Source: Bacillota bacterium
GTDB taxonomy: Bacteria; Bacillota; Clostridia; Peptostreptococcales; Anaerovoracaceae
Reading direction: 5' to 3'
Length of the DNA: 33,612 nt
Assembly: GCA_017432725.1 (NCBI GenBank)
Contig: JAFRIQ010000028.1
Coordinates: 1-33,612 of the forward strand
Shown: piece by piece, positions 10,856 to 27,862 of the stretch
Layout: each line of letters starts with the position of its first letter
Numbering within the stretch: position 1 is the first letter of the stretch
Position numbers and translations under genes: made by a program
Notes under the pieces: generated by a model
What the model saw: only the letters and a program-made list of their open reading frames with translations
The model's database searches: none
Told to the model about the DNA's origin: nothing

Positions 10856-11035
10856 ATGACATATTCGATCATAGGGATACTGGCCAGTATCATCCTTATG
10901 ATAAACAACAGGGATATATTCTGGAGCAGGACCGGAAAGGAACTGACGGTCACCCAGCGGAATTACCGCAAGTTTCTTATGGGTGTCTTCGCTTATCTTG
11001 TGACTGACCTTCTCTGGGGTCTGGGGCATTCTTGA
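10856..11035 (+). pseudogene. N-terminal fragment of frameshifted hybrid sensor histidine kinase
   Basis: ATG at 10856 is preceded by AAAGGAGAG. The frame codes 59 residues, beginning 'MTYSIIGILASIILMIN' and containing 'KFLMGVFAYLVTDLLWG', then stops at TGA 11033 after 'LGHS'. It is the first membrane segments of the kinase encoded downstream. The frame breaks at a tandem duplication of TCTGGGG (11013-11019 and 11020-11026). Removing one copy gives 'TDLLWGILDSHHLIKLLYAD' and joins smoothly to the frame at 11076. The repaired gene 10856-12782 would code 639 residues. Confidence 0.8.
11013..11026 (+). repeat. 7-bp tandem duplication (TCTGGGG x2) breaking the kinase frame
   Basis: Two adjacent identical heptamers. 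One copy is exactly the number of bases that must be removed to restore the frame, which points to a slippage event or a sequencing or assembly error. Confidence 0.85.
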
Positions 11036-11075
11036 CTCTCATCACCTCATAAAGCTCCTTTATGCGGACACCGCC

Positions 11076-12782
11076 GTGCATTTTGCGGCCATGGTGGGAG
11101 CCGTCATGCTCTGGACCCAGTACGTGGTTTCATATCTGGATACGGGGAACGCCTTTGAAAAGACCCTGAAAGTTACAGGACGCGCGTTCTTTGCCCTGGA
11201 GCTCGTATTCATAGCCGTCAATTTCTTTACGCCAATACTCTTCAGCTTCGGCGAAGGGGGAGAGTACCATGCGGGTATCGCAAGGTATATAACCCTGGGG
11301 ATACAGATATTCATGTTTTCCGCCACGTCGGTATATACCCTTACCGTCGCCTTCAGGGCAAAGGGAAGCGTGAGGCTGCGCCACATGACCATAGGCTTTT
11401 TCGGTATCGCCATGATGGTGCTCATCAGCATACAGGTCTTTTATCCTCTGCTTCCTCTCTACGCCATGGGATATATGCTGGGGACCTGCCTTCTCCACAG
11501 TTTCGTCGTAGAGGATGAAAAGGAGGAATACCGCAAGGAGCTTGAGGATGCCGCGAAAAGAGACCAGGAGCAGAAGAGAGAGCTGTCGGAAAGCAGGGAA
11601 GCTCTGAAAGACGCTCTGGCTGCGGCGGAGAATGCCAGCAGGGCAAAAACAGCCTTCCTCTCCAGCATGAGCCACGAGATAAGGACCCCGCTCAACGCCA
11701 TAATAGGGCTCAACAATATCGCTATGGCGGGCGAAGACGCGGGAGAAAAGACCATGGAGTATCTCGGCAAGATAGGAGATGCCGCCGGGCATCTTCTCGA
11801 GATCATCAACGAGATCCTCGATATGAGCCGCATAGAGTCCGGGAAAATGACCATACGCAAAGAGGAATTCTCCCTGACCGAAGCTCTGGACCAGGTCAAT
11901 ACTATTATCGGAGGCCAGTGTAGGGATAAGGGCCTTGATTATGAGTTCAATACAAAGGGGAGGGTCGATGAAAAATACATAGGGGACGCTGTGAAGCTCA
12001 AGCAGGTCCTCATCAACATACTGGGCAATGCGGTGAAGTTCACGCCGGAAGGCGGCAGGATAGATTTCACCGTAGAGGAAGGACCCCGTTTCGATCAAAG
12101 CGCGGTGCTTAAGTTCATCGTCAGCGATACGGGCATAGGCATGAGCAAGGAATTCCTTCCCCGCATCTTCGATCCCTTCGCCCAGGGCGATAACGCTTCT
12201 CCGGGCATGTACGGTTCGACGGGCCTCGGGATGCCCATAAGCAAAAGCATAGTGGAACTGATGAACGGCCATATAGACGTGGCCAGCGAAGAGGGCAAGG
12301 GTTCCACTTTCACCGTAACGGTCACCTTCGGCGAATCTGACTCAAAGGATGACGCGCCGCAAGAAGATCGGCCTGCCGGCGAAAAGAAAGCCGTGGATCT
12401 GCGCGGACGCAGAGTCCTTCTTGCCGAAGACGTACCGGTGAACGCCGAGATCATTATGATGGTGCTAGAGGGAAGGGAAGTCAAAGCAGAGCTTGCAGAA
12501 AACGGCAGGCAGGCCCTGGAGATGTTCAAGAGCAGCGAGCCCGGATACTACGACGCTGTCCTAATGGATATGCGCATGCCGGAAATGGACGGGCTCGAGG
12601 CCACGAGAGCCATAAGGAGCCTGGACAGAGAGGACGCCGCATCGGTACCCATCATCGCCCTTACCGCCAATGCCTTCGACGAAGACGTGCAGCGCAGCAT
12701 GCAGGCGGGGCTCAACGCCCACCTGTCTAAACCGGTGGATCCCGATACGCTGTTCGAAACGATGGAAAGACTGATTGGCTGA
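11076..12782 (+). CDS. Hybrid sensor histidine kinase / response regulator, main body (5' part out of frame)
   Basis: The open frame downstream of the frameshift has 568 residues. ATG 11076 is an arbitrary start without a good ribosome site, because the true start is 10856. Order: membrane sensor region to about residue 145 (five hydrophobic segments), coiled coil 146-185 ('EEYRKELEDAAKRDQEQKRE'), HisKA with phospho-acceptor His200 ('MSHEIRTPLNAI'), HATPase with N-box 'NILGNAVKFTPEG', G1 'DTGIGM' and G2 'GSTGLGM', and a receiver domain with 'LLAEDVPVNA', phospho-acceptor Asp498 ('LMDMRMPEMDG') and Lys in 'LSKPVD'. All catalytic motifs are intact, so decay is recent or absent. The next gene begins 13 bp downstream, which suggests a functional link with the MATE-ATPase fusion. 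Confidence 0.9.
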   Translation: MHFAAMVGAVMLWTQYVVSYLDTGNAFEKTLKVTGRAFFALELVFIAVNFFTPILFSFGEGGEYHAGIARYITLGIQIFMFSATSVYTLTVAFRAKGSVRLRHMTIGFFGIAMMVLISIQVFYPLLPLYAMGYMLGTCLLHSFVVEDEKEEYRKELEDAAKRDQEQKRELSESREALKDALAAAENASRAKTAFLSSMSHEIRTPLNAIIGLNNIAMAGEDAGEKTMEYLGKIGDAAGHLLEIINEILDMSRIESGKMTIRKEEFSLTEALDQVNTIIGGQCRDKGLDYEFNTKGRVDEKYIGDAVKLKQVLINILGNAVKFTPEGGRIDFTVEEGPRFDQSAVLKFIVSDTGIGMSKEFLPRIFDPFAQGDNASPGMYGSTGLGMPISKSIVELMNGHIDVASEEGKGSTFTVTVTFGESDSKDDAPQEDRPAGEKKAVDLRGRRVLLAEDVPVNAEIIMMVLEGREVKAELAENGRQALEMFKSSEPGYYDAVLMDMRMPEMDGLEATRAIRSLDREDAASVPIIALTANAFDEDVQRSMQAGLNAHLSKPVDPDTLFETMERLIG

Positions 12783-12795
12783 ATATATTTAGGAT

Positions 12796-14583
12796 ATGGC
12801 AAATATGCATAACTCAGATCAGAAAAGTGATTTCAAACTCATATCGAAGCTTTGCTTCAGGCTGCTTCCGGTCCAGATACTCCTTGCCATGGTCAACGCC
12901 ATCAACGGCATAGTATCGGGGATCTTCGCGTCCAATTTCATCAGCGAGGAAGCCATGGGTGCAGTGGGGCTTTTCTCTCCTGTCTCCCTCCTCGTGGGAG
13001 CAATAGGCATGATGCTCGTAGGGGGCGCCCAGATACTCTGCGGCGAGTTCAAAGGGAAAAACATGCTGGACAGGATACGGGACGTCTTCTCTTTGGACAT
13101 CATCATATCTTTAGGCTTCTCATTGCTTATAACGGCGTTCCTGCTCCTATGCGGCATATTCGATCTGACAGGTCTCTTTACCAAGGATCCCGTGCTCAGG
13201 CCTCTTTTCAACAGTTATATCATAGGCATGTCCATAGGCATACTTCCCCAGATCCTGGGGCAGCAGCTTTCGGGCTTTCTGTCCCTTGAGAACCAGACCA
13301 AAAGGACCTTCGCTGCCAGCATCAGCTACATACTGGTGAATCTGGTTCTGGACTATCTTTTCGTAAGCCGCCTTAAGATGCAGATCTTCGGTCTGGCTCT
13401 GGCGTCTTCCATAGGTCTTTGGGTATTCTTCCTGGTGCAGGCCGAATACTTCCTGTCCAAGAAAGCGCTTCTCCGCTTCAGCCCGAAGGGTCTTAAATGG
13501 GCTGACTCAAAGGATATAGTCAGGATAGGTGCTCCGGGAGCGCTGTCCTTCGGATATCAGTCTGTAAGAGGCGTAGTCCTCAATTCCCTTATACTTTCCT
13601 ACGTCGGAGCCCTGGGCTTGTCGGCGTTTTCAGCCTGCAATTCATTCATGCCCCTTTTCTGGGCCATACCTACCGGAATGGTCGCGGTCTTCAGGATGCT
13701 CGTAAGCGTCAGCGCGGGGGAAGAAGACAGGCAGACACTCAAGGATCTTATGAAGGTCGTTTTCCTCAGGTTCATACCCCTTATGTGCGCCGTTGCGGCG
13801 GGTATAATCATCTTCGCAAGACCCATAGCGGGCATGTATTTCAAAGATCCCTCTTCGGAGGTATTTCAGATGACCGCGAGAGGTTTCAGGATCATACCCT
13901 TCTGCATGCCTCTGTCAGTCATATGCATGCATTTCACCTGCTACGGACAGGCAATGAACAAGCAGCTTCTGATACACTCCCTTGCCCTTCTCGACGGAGT
14001 GGTCACCATGGTTGCGGCCTCCGCTCTTCTGGTGCCGAATCTTGGCATAGACGGTGTATATTACGCCAATATCTGCAACGGCACCGTAACGACGCTGTTC
14101 GTCCTCATATACTCATGGGCGTGTCTTAAACGTTTCCCAAGAAGTATGGAAGACCTTCTTGTCATACCGGATGGTTTCGGTTACGGCGAGGACAGCAGGA
14201 TAGACATATCCGTGGATACCATGGAAGAAGTGGTGAAGCTTTCGGACGCGGTAATGAGCTTCTGCAAAGAGAAGGGAATAGATGAAAAGAGATCCTATCT
14301 GGCGGGCCTTGCCGTGGAGGAGACTGCGGGCAACATCGTAGAGCACGGTTTCACAAAGGATAAAAAGAACCATTCCATAGACGTCAGAGTCGCGGAGAAA
14401 AACGGCGGGCTCATCATCAGGATCAAGGATGACTGCATTGCCTTCGACCCTTCGGAAAGAAAGGATATCATAGATCCCGAAGATCCCCTGAAGAACATCG
14501 GCATAAGGATGCTCTACAGTCTGGCTGACTCTGTGGAATATCAGAACATCCTGGGTCTTAACGTCCTCACCGTCCGTATCTGA
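12796..14583 (+). CDS. MATE-family transporter fused to an RsbW/SpoIIAB-like ATPase domain
   Basis: The protein has 595 residues. Residues about 10-445 form a MATE/MatE carrier with 12 hydrophobic segments ('SNFISEEAMGAVGLFSPVSL' early; 'GFRIIPFCMPLSVICMHFTCYGQA' in the second half). Residues about 460-595 are soluble and resemble the HATPase_c_2 anti-sigma kinase fold. The N-box is 'LAVEETAGNIVEHGF' (about 501-515), the G1-like box is 'IKDDCIAFDP' and the G2-like box is 'LKNIGIRMLYSLADSVEY'. Such domains in RsbW and SpoIIAB bind ATP, hold a sigma factor and phosphorylate a STAS protein. Here the domain would be tethered at the inner face of a transporter. The gene sits 13 bp after the hybrid kinase. 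The ribosome site is weak (AGGATA), which suggests translational coupling. Transported substrate unknown. Confidence 0.88.
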   Translation: MANMHNSDQKSDFKLISKLCFRLLPVQILLAMVNAINGIVSGIFASNFISEEAMGAVGLFSPVSLLVGAIGMMLVGGAQILCGEFKGKNMLDRIRDVFSLDIIISLGFSLLITAFLLLCGIFDLTGLFTKDPVLRPLFNSYIIGMSIGILPQILGQQLSGFLSLENQTKRTFAASISYILVNLVLDYLFVSRLKMQIFGLALASSIGLWVFFLVQAEYFLSKKALLRFSPKGLKWADSKDIVRIGAPGALSFGYQSVRGVVLNSLILSYVGALGLSAFSACNSFMPLFWAIPTGMVAVFRMLVSVSAGEEDRQTLKDLMKVVFLRFIPLMCAVAAGIIIFARPIAGMYFKDPSSEVFQMTARGFRIIPFCMPLSVICMHFTCYGQAMNKQLLIHSLALLDGVVTMVAASALLVPNLGIDGVYYANICNGTVTTLFVLIYSWACLKRFPRSMEDLLVIPDGFGYGEDSRIDISVDTMEEVVKLSDAVMSFCKEKGIDEKRSYLAGLAVEETAGNIVEHGFTKDKKNHSIDVRVAEKNGGLIIRIKDDCIAFDPSERKDIIDPEDPLKNIGIRMLYSLADSVEYQNILGLNVLTVRI

Positions 14584-19122: not shown

Positions 19123-21279
19123 CTAGCTGTCCTGGCCTTTGTATTCAATGCAGAGCATGGTTATGTCGTCAAACTGCTCGGCGTCCATAACGAAGCCTTC
19201 TATGGAGCCTCTAACGCCTTTGATGATCTCTTCGGCAGTTTCGTCCTTATGTTCGTTCAGGGTCTTGAGCAGACGGTCAAGACCGTACATCTCGTCTCCT
19301 TTTTCTCCGCCCATTGCCTCCGGGACACCGTCCGTATAGAGGAAGAGCTTGGAGCCGGGCTCCATGTCGAGATCGTACTGCTTGTATACCATGTCTTCCA
19401 TGCCGCCTACCACGAAGCCGTGCTTATCCTTCAGAAGTTCGAACTCACCGTCTTTATTTTTTATGACCGGATACTCGTGGCCCGCGTTGGAGGCTTTCAT
19501 CTTGCCCGTGCGCAGATCCAGTATTCCCACCCATACGGTGACGAACATGTCCTCTTCGTTATTGGCGGATATGGTTTTATTGGCCATGGTGAGTATCTGC
19601 GCAGGGGATACGCCCAGCTTTGCATAGCTTTGTATTATGGTCTTGGATATCATCATGAACAGGGCCGCGGGCACGCCTTTTCCGGAAACGTCGGCGATGA
19701 CCATGCACAGATGGTCTTTGTCTATCAGGAAGAAGTCGTAGAAATCCCCTCCGACTTCTCTTGCAGGATCCATTATGGCGTATATGTCCATTTCCCTCCT
19801 TTCAGGGAAGGGCGGGAATATGCTCGGGAGCATGGATGCCTGTATCCTGTTCGCAAGGGAAAGCTCCGTACTGATGCGTTCCTTTTCGGCCGTTATCTGT
19901 TCGTTCTCCGCGATATATTCCTTCATACGGGTAGTAAGGGAGGAGAAGGATTCCGCGAGGACCTGTGTCTCGTCTCCCGTATCCATATCCCAGCTGAAGT
20001 CGAGATTGTCTCCGTGCATATTGCCGACTTCGTCGGTGAGTTTCTGTATGGGTTTTACGATCTGGAGGGAAAGAGTTCCGGACACCCATACGGCTATGGC
20101 TACGGACAGCAAGATGAGTCCTATCATAAGGAAAAACGTGTTCCTCATGTAGCTGTCCGCATCCTTTACGGACTGCTCCGTTATGGCGTCCATGTTTTCT
20201 ATGAGCTGCTTCGTGGGCAGTTCCACCGCTTCTTTTGAAAGTATGACTACCATGGACCAGCCTACGGTCTTCATGGGAGAATACGCAGCGTAGCATGATT
20301 CGCCGTCTATGATGAGCTCAGAGATGCCTTCTTCACCGTCCACAGCTTTTGCCGCCATTCCGGCAAGGTCCCGGTCTTCGCATTGGCGAAGGTCCTGAGC
20401 ATCGGTGACAGCTGCCAGGATACCGTCCGCATAGGTGGAAAAGAGCACCTGCCCGCTTCTGTTGAGTATGCAGGCATTCCCGCTGCCGCCGAGGTCCGCG
20501 CTCTTTACCAGGTCTTCCATATCGTCAAGGTACATGCCGGCTCCGGCTACGGACACTAAGGCATCTCCCCTGTATACGGGAACTCCGCACATTATACCGA
20601 GCCTCGGGGTATGGGCGTCCTTCGTGACGGGCGTAAAGTAAGGCTCGCCGCTTTCTGCGGCGCCTACGTACCAGGGGCGCTCCTTTGCCTCGAGAGGCAT
20701 GAGATTTCCCGATTCGTCATATTTTTTCGCAGGGATGAAGTCGGCCTGGACCATGAATCCCGATTCCGTAGCAACGTAAATGGAGGCCATCTTGCTATTG
20801 TTTCCGTTGATGCCCATAAGAACGTCCTGTACGTTGCCTATGAGATTAAGTTCGTTTACTATTGCCGGATCCCAGGGGTTCGTATGGGAAGAATAGAGTA
20901 CCTGTATGGTAAGCTGTCCGTCCCTGCCTGCGTCCGGAAGGGGCACGCTCCTGGAAGGGTAGAGCCCGGGGTTGTTGTAGATATGTTCAGCCACCGACGC
21001 TGCGGTGAGAACGTCCTGCTTGAATTCCCTGAAGAGGTCGTCCGCTATGGCGGCCTTCTCCCCTGACAGTTCCAGTATGCGCTGTTTCGACGCCTCGGTC
21101 ATATATGCCGAGGATTTTTCTCCTATGGTATCGTTCAGATTTCTGTTGGACGCCGACATGGTCCTGGAAACTCCGATCATTCCGAAACCGAAAATAGCGG
21201 TTGCAGCAAGAAGGAGTCCCAGTACCAGGGCGAGCATCGCCATCTGTGTCTTTTTACCGAGAGATCTGTTTCTGATCAT
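19123..21279 (-). CDS. Membrane sensor SpoIIE/PP2C-type serine phosphatase (dCache-HAMP-SpoIIE)
   Basis: The protein has 718 residues. Membrane segment 1 is about residues 12-36. A large extracytoplasmic region about 45-370 has double-Cache features ('VATESGFMVQADFIPAKKYD', 'ERPWYVGAAESGEPYFTPVTKD', 'GIMCGVPVYRGDALVSVAGAG'). Segment 2 is about 388-410, then HAMP ('SLQIVKPIQKLTDEVGNM'), a coiled coil ('ISTELSLANRIQASMLPSIF') and SpoIIE phosphatase about 490-712 with metal ligands in 'REVGGDFYDFF' and 'MVIADVSGKGVPAALFMMISK', and 'LFLYTDGVPEAM'. RsbU-type proteins dephosphorylate STAS anti-anti-sigma factors when an external signal is sensed. No STAS gene is visible here. The RsbW-like domain of the MATE fusion is about 4.5 kb away and is a possible counterpart. 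Confidence 0.93.
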   Translation of the reverse strand: MIRNRSLGKKTQMAMLALVLGLLLAATAIFGFGMIGVSRTMSASNRNLNDTIGEKSSAYMTEASKQRILELSGEKAAIADDLFREFKQDVLTAASVAEHIYNNPGLYPSRSVPLPDAGRDGQLTIQVLYSSHTNPWDPAIVNELNLIGNVQDVLMGINGNNSKMASIYVATESGFMVQADFIPAKKYDESGNLMPLEAKERPWYVGAAESGEPYFTPVTKDAHTPRLGIMCGVPVYRGDALVSVAGAGMYLDDMEDLVKSADLGGSGNACILNRSGQVLFSTYADGILAAVTDAQDLRQCEDRDLAGMAAKAVDGEEGISELIIDGESCYAAYSPMKTVGWSMVVILSKEAVELPTKQLIENMDAITEQSVKDADSYMRNTFFLMIGLILLSVAIAVWVSGTLSLQIVKPIQKLTDEVGNMHGDNLDFSWDMDTGDETQVLAESFSSLTTRMKEYIAENEQITAEKERISTELSLANRIQASMLPSIFPPFPERREMDIYAIMDPAREVGGDFYDFFLIDKDHLCMVIADVSGKGVPAALFMMISKTIIQSYAKLGVSPAQILTMANKTISANNEEDMFVTVWVGILDLRTGKMKASNAGHEYPVIKNKDGEFELLKDKHGFVVGGMEDMVYKQYDLDMEPGSKLFLYTDGVPEAMGGEKGDEMYGLDRLLKTLNEHKDETAEEIIKGVRGSIEGFVMDAEQFDDITMLCIEYKGQDS

Positions 21280-26743: not shown

Positions 26744-26749
26744 ATGTAC

Positions 26750-27862
26750 ATGCTGTATACCAAAGGCTACAAGTACAGAATATACCCAAACAGGGCTCAA
26801 ATAAACAGGATAGAAAACATTTTCGGCTGCTGCAGATTCGTTTTCAATTACTTTCTTACCTTAAGACGCACTGCATGGAAAATATCAGGGCAAAGCATAA
26901 ACTATGTCCTTTCCTCAAGGATACTGACTTCACTTAAAAAGTACAGACCTTACGTATTTCTTGCTTCGAGTGACAGTATGGCTCTTCAGGAAAGTCTTAA
27001 AGACTTAGACAGAGCCTATCAGAACTTCTTTGATAAAAGAAACAGTTATCCCAAATACAAAAGCAAACATTTTCATAAACAGTCCTACAGGACACGAAAC
27101 GTAAATAACTGTATACGTGTAGAGGGGAAACATCTTATTCTACCGAAGGTTGGAAAAGTAAAGATAAAACTGTCGAGATCCTTCAAAGGACGCATCCTCA
27201 ATGCGACAGTATCAAGAGATCCTTCAGGTAAATATTACGTATCGCTGTGCGTAGAAGAAGAGCTCATACCAAAACCCAATGCGGGAGGCATGACAGGTAT
27301 AGACGTAGGGCTTCATGACTTCTACGTGGACAGCAACGGAAATCATATCCCAAATCCCAAGGCTTTGAGACGTTATGAGAAAAAACTTGCAAGAGAGCAA
27401 AGAAGGCTCAGCCGCAAAGTAAAAGGATCGAAAAACAGCAAAAAGCAGCGCAGGGAAGTATCCCGTATACATGAAAAGATACATAACCTGCGAACAGACT
27501 TTCTACACAAAGAGTCGACAAGGCTGGTGAGCGAAAACCAAGTCATCTGCATGGAGACTTTAAAAGTGAAGGGTATGGTAAGAAACCATCACCTTGCGAA
27601 GTCGGTATCAGACGCATCATGGAGCAGGTTCTTCAGCATGCTCAAATACAAGTCGATGGAATACGGATGCGATATCATACAGGTATCTACGTTCTTTCCT
27701 TCGAGTCAGCTGTGTTCATGCTGCGGATACAAGAATCCAGTTGTAAAAGATCTGTCGATAAGGAAGTGGGTATGTCCATGCTGCGGCGCTGAGCATGACA
27801 GAGATATGAATGCTGCGATCAACATCCTTAAAGAAGGGATGAAACTATTGACCGCAGCATAA
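26750..27862 (+). CDS. tnpB: TnpB RNA-guided nuclease (IS605 OrfB)
   Basis: The protein has 370 residues from ATG 26750; the ATG at 26744 directly abuts the -10 box and is unlikely to be transcribed. N-terminal OrfB_IS605 region 'GYKYRIYPNRAQINRIENIF'. RuvC-I 'GIDVGLHDFYVD' (Asp about 183), RuvC-II 'VICMETLKVKGM' (Glu about 269), zinc finger CSCCGYK...CPCCG, and RuvC-III 'HDRDMNAAINI' (Asp about 354). All catalytic residues are present and the length matches active TnpBs (about 370-400). TnpB uses an RNA from the element's right end to cut DNA matching the empty donor site next to a target motif, which keeps the element in place (known for the family). It may be active here. Confidence 0.94.
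   Translation: MLYTKGYKYRIYPNRAQINRIENIFGCCRFVFNYFLTLRRTAWKISGQSINYVLSSRILTSLKKYRPYVFLASSDSMALQESLKDLDRAYQNFFDKRNSYPKYKSKHFHKQSYRTRNVNNCIRVEGKHLILPKVGKVKIKLSRSFKGRILNATVSRDPSGKYYVSLCVEEELIPKPNAGGMTGIDVGLHDFYVDSNGNHIPNPKALRRYEKKLAREQRRLSRKVKGSKNSKKQRREVSRIHEKIHNLRTDFLHKESTRLVSENQVICMETLKVKGMVRNHHLAKSVSDASWSRFFSMLKYKSMEYGCDIIQVSTFFPSSQLCSCCGYKNPVVKDLSIRKWVCPCCGAEHDRDMNAAINILKEGMKLLTAA

Follow-up and report, generated by a model that had tools for sequence, protein, structure and literature searches.

The window, as the whole stretch of 33,612 nucleotides analysed here is called, carries at positions 12796–14583 (+) a gene whose product joins a MATE exporter to a HATPase_c_2 domain. All sampled fusions of this kind fall into a single MATE lineage, and in many relatives the gene is found in operons together with genes for small STAS proteins and SpoIIE-type phosphatases. 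The reading preferred here, which stands at roughly an even chance, is that the HATPase_c_2 tail docks a STAS protein and that the MATE exporter is the output, or at least the membrane arm, of a partner switch.

Domain architecture of the fusion protein

The open reading frame begins with ATG and extends for 595 residues without an internal stop; a second in-frame ATG lies at 12805. The original prediction of a MATE carrier running without a stop into a soluble ATPase-type tail is borne out by this single frame, in which both Pfam domains score above their cut-offs. The carrier part (residues 1–445, positions 12796–14130, +) matches MatE (PF01554) in two stretches, that is, with the two repeats of a MATE carrier, at 1.4e-24 and 87 bits against a cut-off of 24.9. 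Its nearest NCBIfam model is TIGR00797, at 104.5 bits, which is under the cut-off of 147.4. When the profile of the 80-row family described below is compared with the PDB, PfMATE (3vvn) is matched at 4.2e-23 and BH2163 at 6e-18, and the alignment covers about residues 36–446. The solved chains matched comprise 440–499 residues and align only to the carrier part, whereas the fusion has an extra tail. The last hydropathy peaks fall near residue 444. Residue D400, whose role in the carrier we take, by analogy, to be that assigned in known MATEs, is present in 79 of 80 window-type rows and in 6 of 16 rows of the wide set. Ion-coupled export is a trait of the MATE family, and for the fusion it may be carried over from the family.

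A HATPase_c_2 domain, which had been predicted for the C-terminal tail, is present there at residues 476–593 (14221–14574, +), with an E-value of 3.2e-13 and 50.2 bits against the curated cut-off of 27.4 (PF13581, Pfam); searched alone, the C-terminal 141 residues match the same domain at 1.3e-14. The nearest NCBIfam models of the tail are RsbW and RsbA, both below cut-off, and at 20.6 bits against the 145 of the RsbW equivalog the tail is RsbW-like only. A PDB search with the tail profile gives no match at E 0.01; loosened to E 10, it returns B. subtilis RsbW (6m36) as the best, weak match at 0.019, together with three weaker ones. Since the 80 relatives kept from named genomes share the full-length architecture, the fusion is a real gene and not an assembly join.

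Distribution and origin of the family

Scanning named genomes for two conserved motifs yields 433 places encoding relatives, from which 80 full-length fusions were kept, 49–59% identical over the best segment. According to the record titles, 79 of them belong to Bacillota and one comes from a metagenome bin titled Chloroflexi; the Bacillota titles include 27 Lachnospiraceae, 14 Erysipelotrichaceae and 9 Oscillospiraceae, along with 24 that give no family. Cultured carriers of the fusion include Butyrivibrio proteoclasticus P6B7 and 'Sarcina' sp. DSM 11001. Within the window's order, 51 of 393 genomes show a match at 1e-60, part of the matches being unfused MATEs; the order-level set used below consists of 51 fusion rows from 35 genomes, two of the rows being partial. 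At the phylum level (398 genomes), full-length fusions at 1e-70 are found in seven genomes besides the window's own (G548, G421, G540, G678, G652, G435 and G722), and the same search also returns long frames with carrier-only matches (e.g., 617 and 790 aa).

A tree built by a quick method from the carrier columns only groups 40 fusions with one unfused MATE in a single clade, apart from 65 unfused carriers, with a support of 99. The fused/unfused label changes twice on this tree, compared with a mean of about 32.5 changes after shuffling. A careful tree of 52 rows, made without six long rows and with a random draw of 27 from the remaining unfused ones, separates 24 fusions and the same unfused MATE from the 27 unfused carriers with a support of 100/100; in both trees the unfused MATEs are those returned by the searches, and nearer ones may exist.

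The unfused MATE inside the fusion clade (L196:8967–10340 (−), genome G334) lies beside a SpoIIE gene, and for this reason it may either have lost its HATPase domain or represent an early branch. Two further relatives, L130:610–3279 (−; 890 aa) and L136:1441–4146 (+; 902 aa), are triple fusions of MatE, HATPase_c_2 and HD-CE, the last domain (PF24391) scoring 133.6 and 130.4 bits, respectively. No description of a MATE–HATPase fusion was found in one open-access library, searched mostly by titles and abstracts; the combination of MatE and HATPase_c_2 is presumably listed in protein databases.

Partner-switch genes near the fusions

The gene neighbourhood was surveyed by de novo gene calls at 83 loci and all-against-all clustering, with 78 loci counted after five had lost the focal gene to greedy gene calling. 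Genes for SpoIIE phosphatases, for small STAS proteins and for a STAS-x-HATPase protein recur beside the fusions, as does a PHP-type gene. A search with common profiles detects STAS or SpoIIE at 22 of 80 named-genome loci, at 4 of 20 loci of a second fusion set and at 1 of 20 controls with an unfused MATE; a Fisher test of 22/80 against 1/20 gives 0.025. The sole control with a partner gene is L196, the unfused MATE that groups with the fusions. When only genes within 4 kb and on the same strand are counted, the figures are 21 of 80, 1 of 20 and, among the controls in which the query found the carrier, 0 of 18. The stretch read is without STAS or SpoIIE at 58 of the 80 named-genome loci and at 16 of the 20 loci of the second set. 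These two sets overlap (L087/G008, L110/G239, L073/G295) and consequently are not summed.

At the order level, STAS or SpoIIE lies within 9 kb of 18 of the 51 fusions against 2.9 expected, and 11 of the 51 have one within 4 kb on their own strand against 0.73 expected; here the expected counts are derived from match counts and genome sizes assuming even placement, kinship is not corrected for, SpoIIE rows are taken to about 1e-10 only, and genomes without a fusion are left out. In the phylum-level regions, SpoIIE is on the strand of the fusion in 8 of 8 cases (seven genomes). Tight links take the form STAS–fusion–SpoIIE (L241), STAS–SpoIIE–fusion (L202) or STAS–fusion–GNAT–SpoIIE/HATPase (L197), among others, with L199 like L197 except for an unassigned gene in the GNAT place. 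Further arrangements are fusion–SpoIIE with a 4-bp gap (L247), STAS–x–fusion–SpoIIE (L246) and STAS–x–fusion–GNAT–SpoIIE–HATPase (L201). In B. proteoclasticus P6B7 (L125), the fusion is flanked by a STAS-x-HATPase gene on one side and by SpoIIE and STAS genes on the other. Fourteen loci, partly chosen for a nearby STAS match, serve as illustration and are counted only where they are also order-level rows.

The phosphorylation site of the STAS proteins reads SSAG in 12 of 12 STAS genes listed near fusions, and SSAG or SSGG in 42 of 49 STAS matches of another set. Some of the HATPase_c_2 domains in fusion operons are themselves fused to SpoIIE. In several of the operons that belong to the subclade discussed in the next section, the fusion and SpoIIE are separated by a GNAT-type acetyltransferase gene (L197:6494–7429, L201:3877–4926, L243:10363–11388); the GNAT Pfam match passes the cut-off in L201 and L243 but falls short of it in L197, and L199 has none.

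ATP-site residues of the fused domain

Residue conservation was assessed in 109 relatives, 80 of them found in named genomes by motif pattern and 29 by profile. The 80 rows were picked by motifs containing the residues in question, and the 29 profile-found rows are therefore the fairer test; L106 was left out of the fusion alignment (A3). The domain had been predicted to possess an N-box together with G1-like and G2-like boxes. The N-box is present at about residues 507–518 (14317–14352, +; E508-E509-T-A-G-N513-I-V-E-H-G-F), where E509 and N513 provide the ExxxN of RsbW/SpoIIAB-type domains. E509 is conserved in 80/80 and 29/29 rows (109 of 109) and N513 in 79/80 and 26/29 (105 of 109). The other two boxes, which are defined as DxG (G1) and GxG (G2) in RsbW/SpoIIAB-type domains, are retained only in part. 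G1 (14428–14451, +; D545-D-C547-I-A-F-D-P) reads D-D-C in the window protein: D545 is kept in 80/80 and 26/29 rows (106 of 109), and Cys547 replaces the usual Gly in 80/80 and 23/29. Sequence comparison leaves a remnant of G2 (14494–14508, +; N567-I-G569-I-R571), with KNIG at the position where companion HATPases have GGLG. A loss of the ATP-binding Asn and Gly residues across homologues, which would have spoken against the original prediction, is thus half observed: the G1 Gly is replaced in most homologues, and the Asn is kept except in a deep subclade and some far rows.

This subclade comprises 10 fusions, with a support of 98 for all 10 in the quick tree and 98/96 for 8 of them in the careful tree. 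Its members have no ExxxN: in 10 of 10, the N-box Asn has given way to L, V, M or S. The G1 Asp is missing from all 8 rows in which that box is readable. The companion HATPases in the operons of the same subclade retain the N-box Asn, the G1 Asp and GGLG in 5 of 5 cases. Among the 12 HATPases compared that are not fused to a MATE (8 from fusion operons, including these 5, and 4 from elsewhere), N-box Asn and GGLG occur in 12 of 12 and the G1 Asp in 11 of 12, that of L202 being Asn; among 19 fused domains, GGLG is found in L246 only. Outside the subclade, the N-box Asn is also absent from L208, L209, L245, L248 and L126, and L209 has lost the N-box Glu as well.

The strongest case for output over kinase is made by the subclade, in which an apparently dead ATP site stands next to an intact HATPase. 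The main rival to docking is a membrane-bound STAS kinase, in which the tail would be an active serine kinase of the RsbW/SpoIIAB type and the MATE part its sensor, with substrate or ion state setting STAS phosphorylation. Such a kinase is rather unlikely overall; in the window class, which retains E509, N513 and D545, the domain may still bind ATP or phosphorylate a STAS protein. The phospho-site of the adjacent STAS genes and the fusion of other operon HATPase_c_2 domains to SpoIIE are also consistent with it. Even in the window class, however, Cys stands in for the G1 Gly and there is no GGLG, and the subclade that lost its N-box Asn (and the G1 Asp in the 8 readable rows) has yet retained the operon with canonical HATPases. 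Several observations count against docking in turn. The near-invariance of E509, N513 and D545 in the window class fits an active kinase equally well, and the loss of Asn outside one subclade also fits plain decay. In addition, most loci are without STAS or SpoIIE in the stretch read, and for the window itself the SpoIIE gene is distant and STAS lies on another contig.

Genome-level co-occurrence and sigma factors

Among fusion genomes, STAS is found in 36 of 36, against 9 of 19 genomes of the same family without a 1e-60 match (Fisher 3e-6), and SpoIIE below 1e-20 in 34 of 36 against 5 of 19 (Fisher 3e-7); these figures are not corrected for kinship, and the comparison genomes are the first 19 listed, less G010, which was excluded because of a fusion-like fragment. 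STAS, SpoIIE and HATPase domains thus occur together or in the same genome, and at part of the loci they do so at the operon level. The predicted link to partner switching is supported by neighbourhood and co-occurrence, but it does not extend to a partner gene near most window-type loci.

Sigma factors of SigB/SigF size (PF04539, 25–48 bits, frames of 244–279 aa; own classification) are present in 14 of 37 fusion genomes. None is found by PF04539 in the other 23, of which 10 are at least 90% complete; the search or the assemblies miss some sigma factors, as the window's own genome, G295 and G308 are without any match, even to a housekeeping sigma, and its counts cover SigB/SigF-size sigmas, with ECF sigmas outside and two fusion-less genomes in the search not counted. 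A sigma factor, one of the outputs originally proposed, is weakened by these 23 genomes and does not hold as the general case. Partner-switch genes without a sigma target have previously been noted for Methanomicrobiales in a passage of PMC2686161.

It is improbable that the domain is an anti-sigma factor that keeps a sigma factor membrane-bound until its release by STAS: the nearest named tail models (RsbW and RsbA, below cut-offs), the RsbW match in the PDB and the 14 genomes with a SigB/SigF-size sigma are in keeping with this role, but the 23 genomes in which the imperfect PF04539 search, with ECF sigmas outside, finds none speak against it. A similarly small chance is given to a stabilising or dimerising tail without a signalling role, the neighbourhood then being hitch-hiking, which would agree with the loss of ATP-site residues in part of the family and with the window-type loci lacking partner genes, but not with the site motifs conserved in 80 rows or with operon links that recur in deep lineages.

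The exporter as a proposed output of a partner switch

In the preferred reading, that of an exporter controlled through STAS docking, a SpoIIE-type phosphatase would sense a signal and dephosphorylate the serine of the STAS protein within its SSAG motif. The STAS protein would be rephosphorylated by a canonical HATPase kinase encoded elsewhere in the operon or genome, either as a free protein or as part of a fusion with SpoIIE or STAS-APH. In its unphosphorylated form, STAS would bind the MATE-fused domain and change transport, a step proposed by analogy with the non-sigma output in SiaC–SiaD. Taking the fusion, its lineage, residue conservation, operon links and co-occurrence as observed, we infer STAS binding, the direction of control and the cargo. 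The second of the two options originally proposed, a phospho-switch controlling export, appears to fit better than a sigma output as the general case, mainly because the subclade has lost ATP-site residues while its companion HATPases keep them.

A more specific proposal, held tentatively and at somewhat less than an even chance, is that a mostly-Bacillota MATE lineage is gated directly by STAS phosphorylation, that the HATPase domain of the subclade is a kinase-dead STAS receptor, and that some deep members export the products of neighbouring NRPS, GH3-type or peptide clusters. If true, product release in those deep members would be switched post-translationally.

The family resembles the RsbU/RsbV/RsbW and SpoIIE/SpoIIAA/SpoIIAB systems in its HATPase_c_2 domain and, in the operons of many relatives, in an SSAG STAS gene and a SpoIIE-type phosphatase. 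It differs from them in that the HATPase is fused to an exporter, with Cys in G1 and without GGLG, and in that the genome is often without a SigB/SigF-size sigma. The SiaABCD system of Pseudomonas aeruginosa is likewise made up of a SpoIIE-type phosphatase, a kinase and a STAS-like protein, the last of which, when unphosphorylated, binds an output that is not a sigma factor. As set out in sections of PMC8457831, phosphorylation of SiaC precludes its binding to SiaD, and unphosphorylated SiaC binds and activates the SiaD cyclase; the same sections describe the STAS proteins HsbA and BgrV as modulators of other cyclases, and the non-sigma partner-switch outputs they name are diguanylate cyclases. 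SiaABCD thus acts on the diguanylate cyclase SiaD, whereas here the output would presumably be an exporter that itself carries a HATPase domain.

SLC26/SulP transporters with a cytoplasmic STAS domain, as described in part of PMC8256260, also join a transporter to one half of the STAS/HATPase pair. They carry the STAS half, whereas the MATE fusion carries what would be the STAS-binding half, and the carrier families differ; the MATE–HATPase design mirrors SulP–STAS from the other side. If docking is true, a transporter with the STAS-binding half in cis would extend partner-switch logic to export control. The fusion also marks a MATE lineage that is easily mistaken for plain efflux pumps, and the cultured B. 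proteoclasticus P6B7 is a ready test system.

Possible cargo

NRPS, GH3 or adenylating genes are found near the fusion at 7 of 24 deep-lineage loci (14 of these 24 being partly chosen for partner genes), at 2 of 80 named-genome loci and at 3 of 20 loci of the second set. They occur at 1 of 20 controls, which is again L196, and were not found in the window. On these counts, such neighbours were rejected as a general rule and retained for deep lineages only. NRPS-type genes adjoin deep-lineage fusions at L040:10042–19226, L206:3154–10961 and L248:4963–10349, and natural-product cargo is suggested for these lineages. At L042:1599–3473, a SpoIIE-HATPase_c_2 fusion (Pfam) stands directly after an apparent NRPS C-terminal part and is followed by small precursor-like and radical-SAM-like genes, all of these flanking genes being recognised by eye.

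Surroundings of the gene in the window and its assembly

A hybrid sensor kinase gene (11076–12782, +; HisKA, HATPase_c and receiver domains) ends 13 bp before the fusion. The position directly after a sensor kinase is as predicted, but the link is not a conserved one: the cluster of this kinase amounts to 7 genes within four genes of the fusion across the 78 loci and also swept in unrelated DegV-like genes, and the kinase was rejected as a conserved partner. Over 10856–12782, the kinase seems to be broken into two frames, the break falling at a tandem TCTGGGG repeat (11013–11026, by eye); this may reflect either a fault in the assembly or a genuine frame disruption.

A gene at 19123–21279 (−) encodes a protein of 718 aa with dCache_1 and SpoIIE phosphatase domains (Pfam 1.3e-14 and 1.1e-51), whose best NCBIfam match is SiaA (91.7 bits; cut-off 700). 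The assembly has three SpoIIE matches, and this is the only one that is neither a remnant (contig C68) nor weak (contig C25, 1.2e-4). Because this phosphatase is encoded on the opposite strand, 4.5 kb away, a tie between it and the fusion is a guess. The window's assembly, which is 75% complete, contains two STAS matches, both on contig C68 and not on the contig of the fusion. On C68, only the first and the last stretch of a SpoIIE are left; at the same place, the sister genome G008 (locus L046) has a longer SpoIIE, in a 576-aa frame. The C68 locus (L044:5199–7441) comprises STAS, the SpoIIE remnant, a STAS-APH-HATPase_c_2 gene and a PHP-like gene, the APH part being TIGR02172-like but below cut-off. 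Elsewhere in the window, a TnpB-like gene with OrfB_IS605, Cas12f1-like_TNB and HTH_OrfB_IS605 domains lies at 26744–27862.
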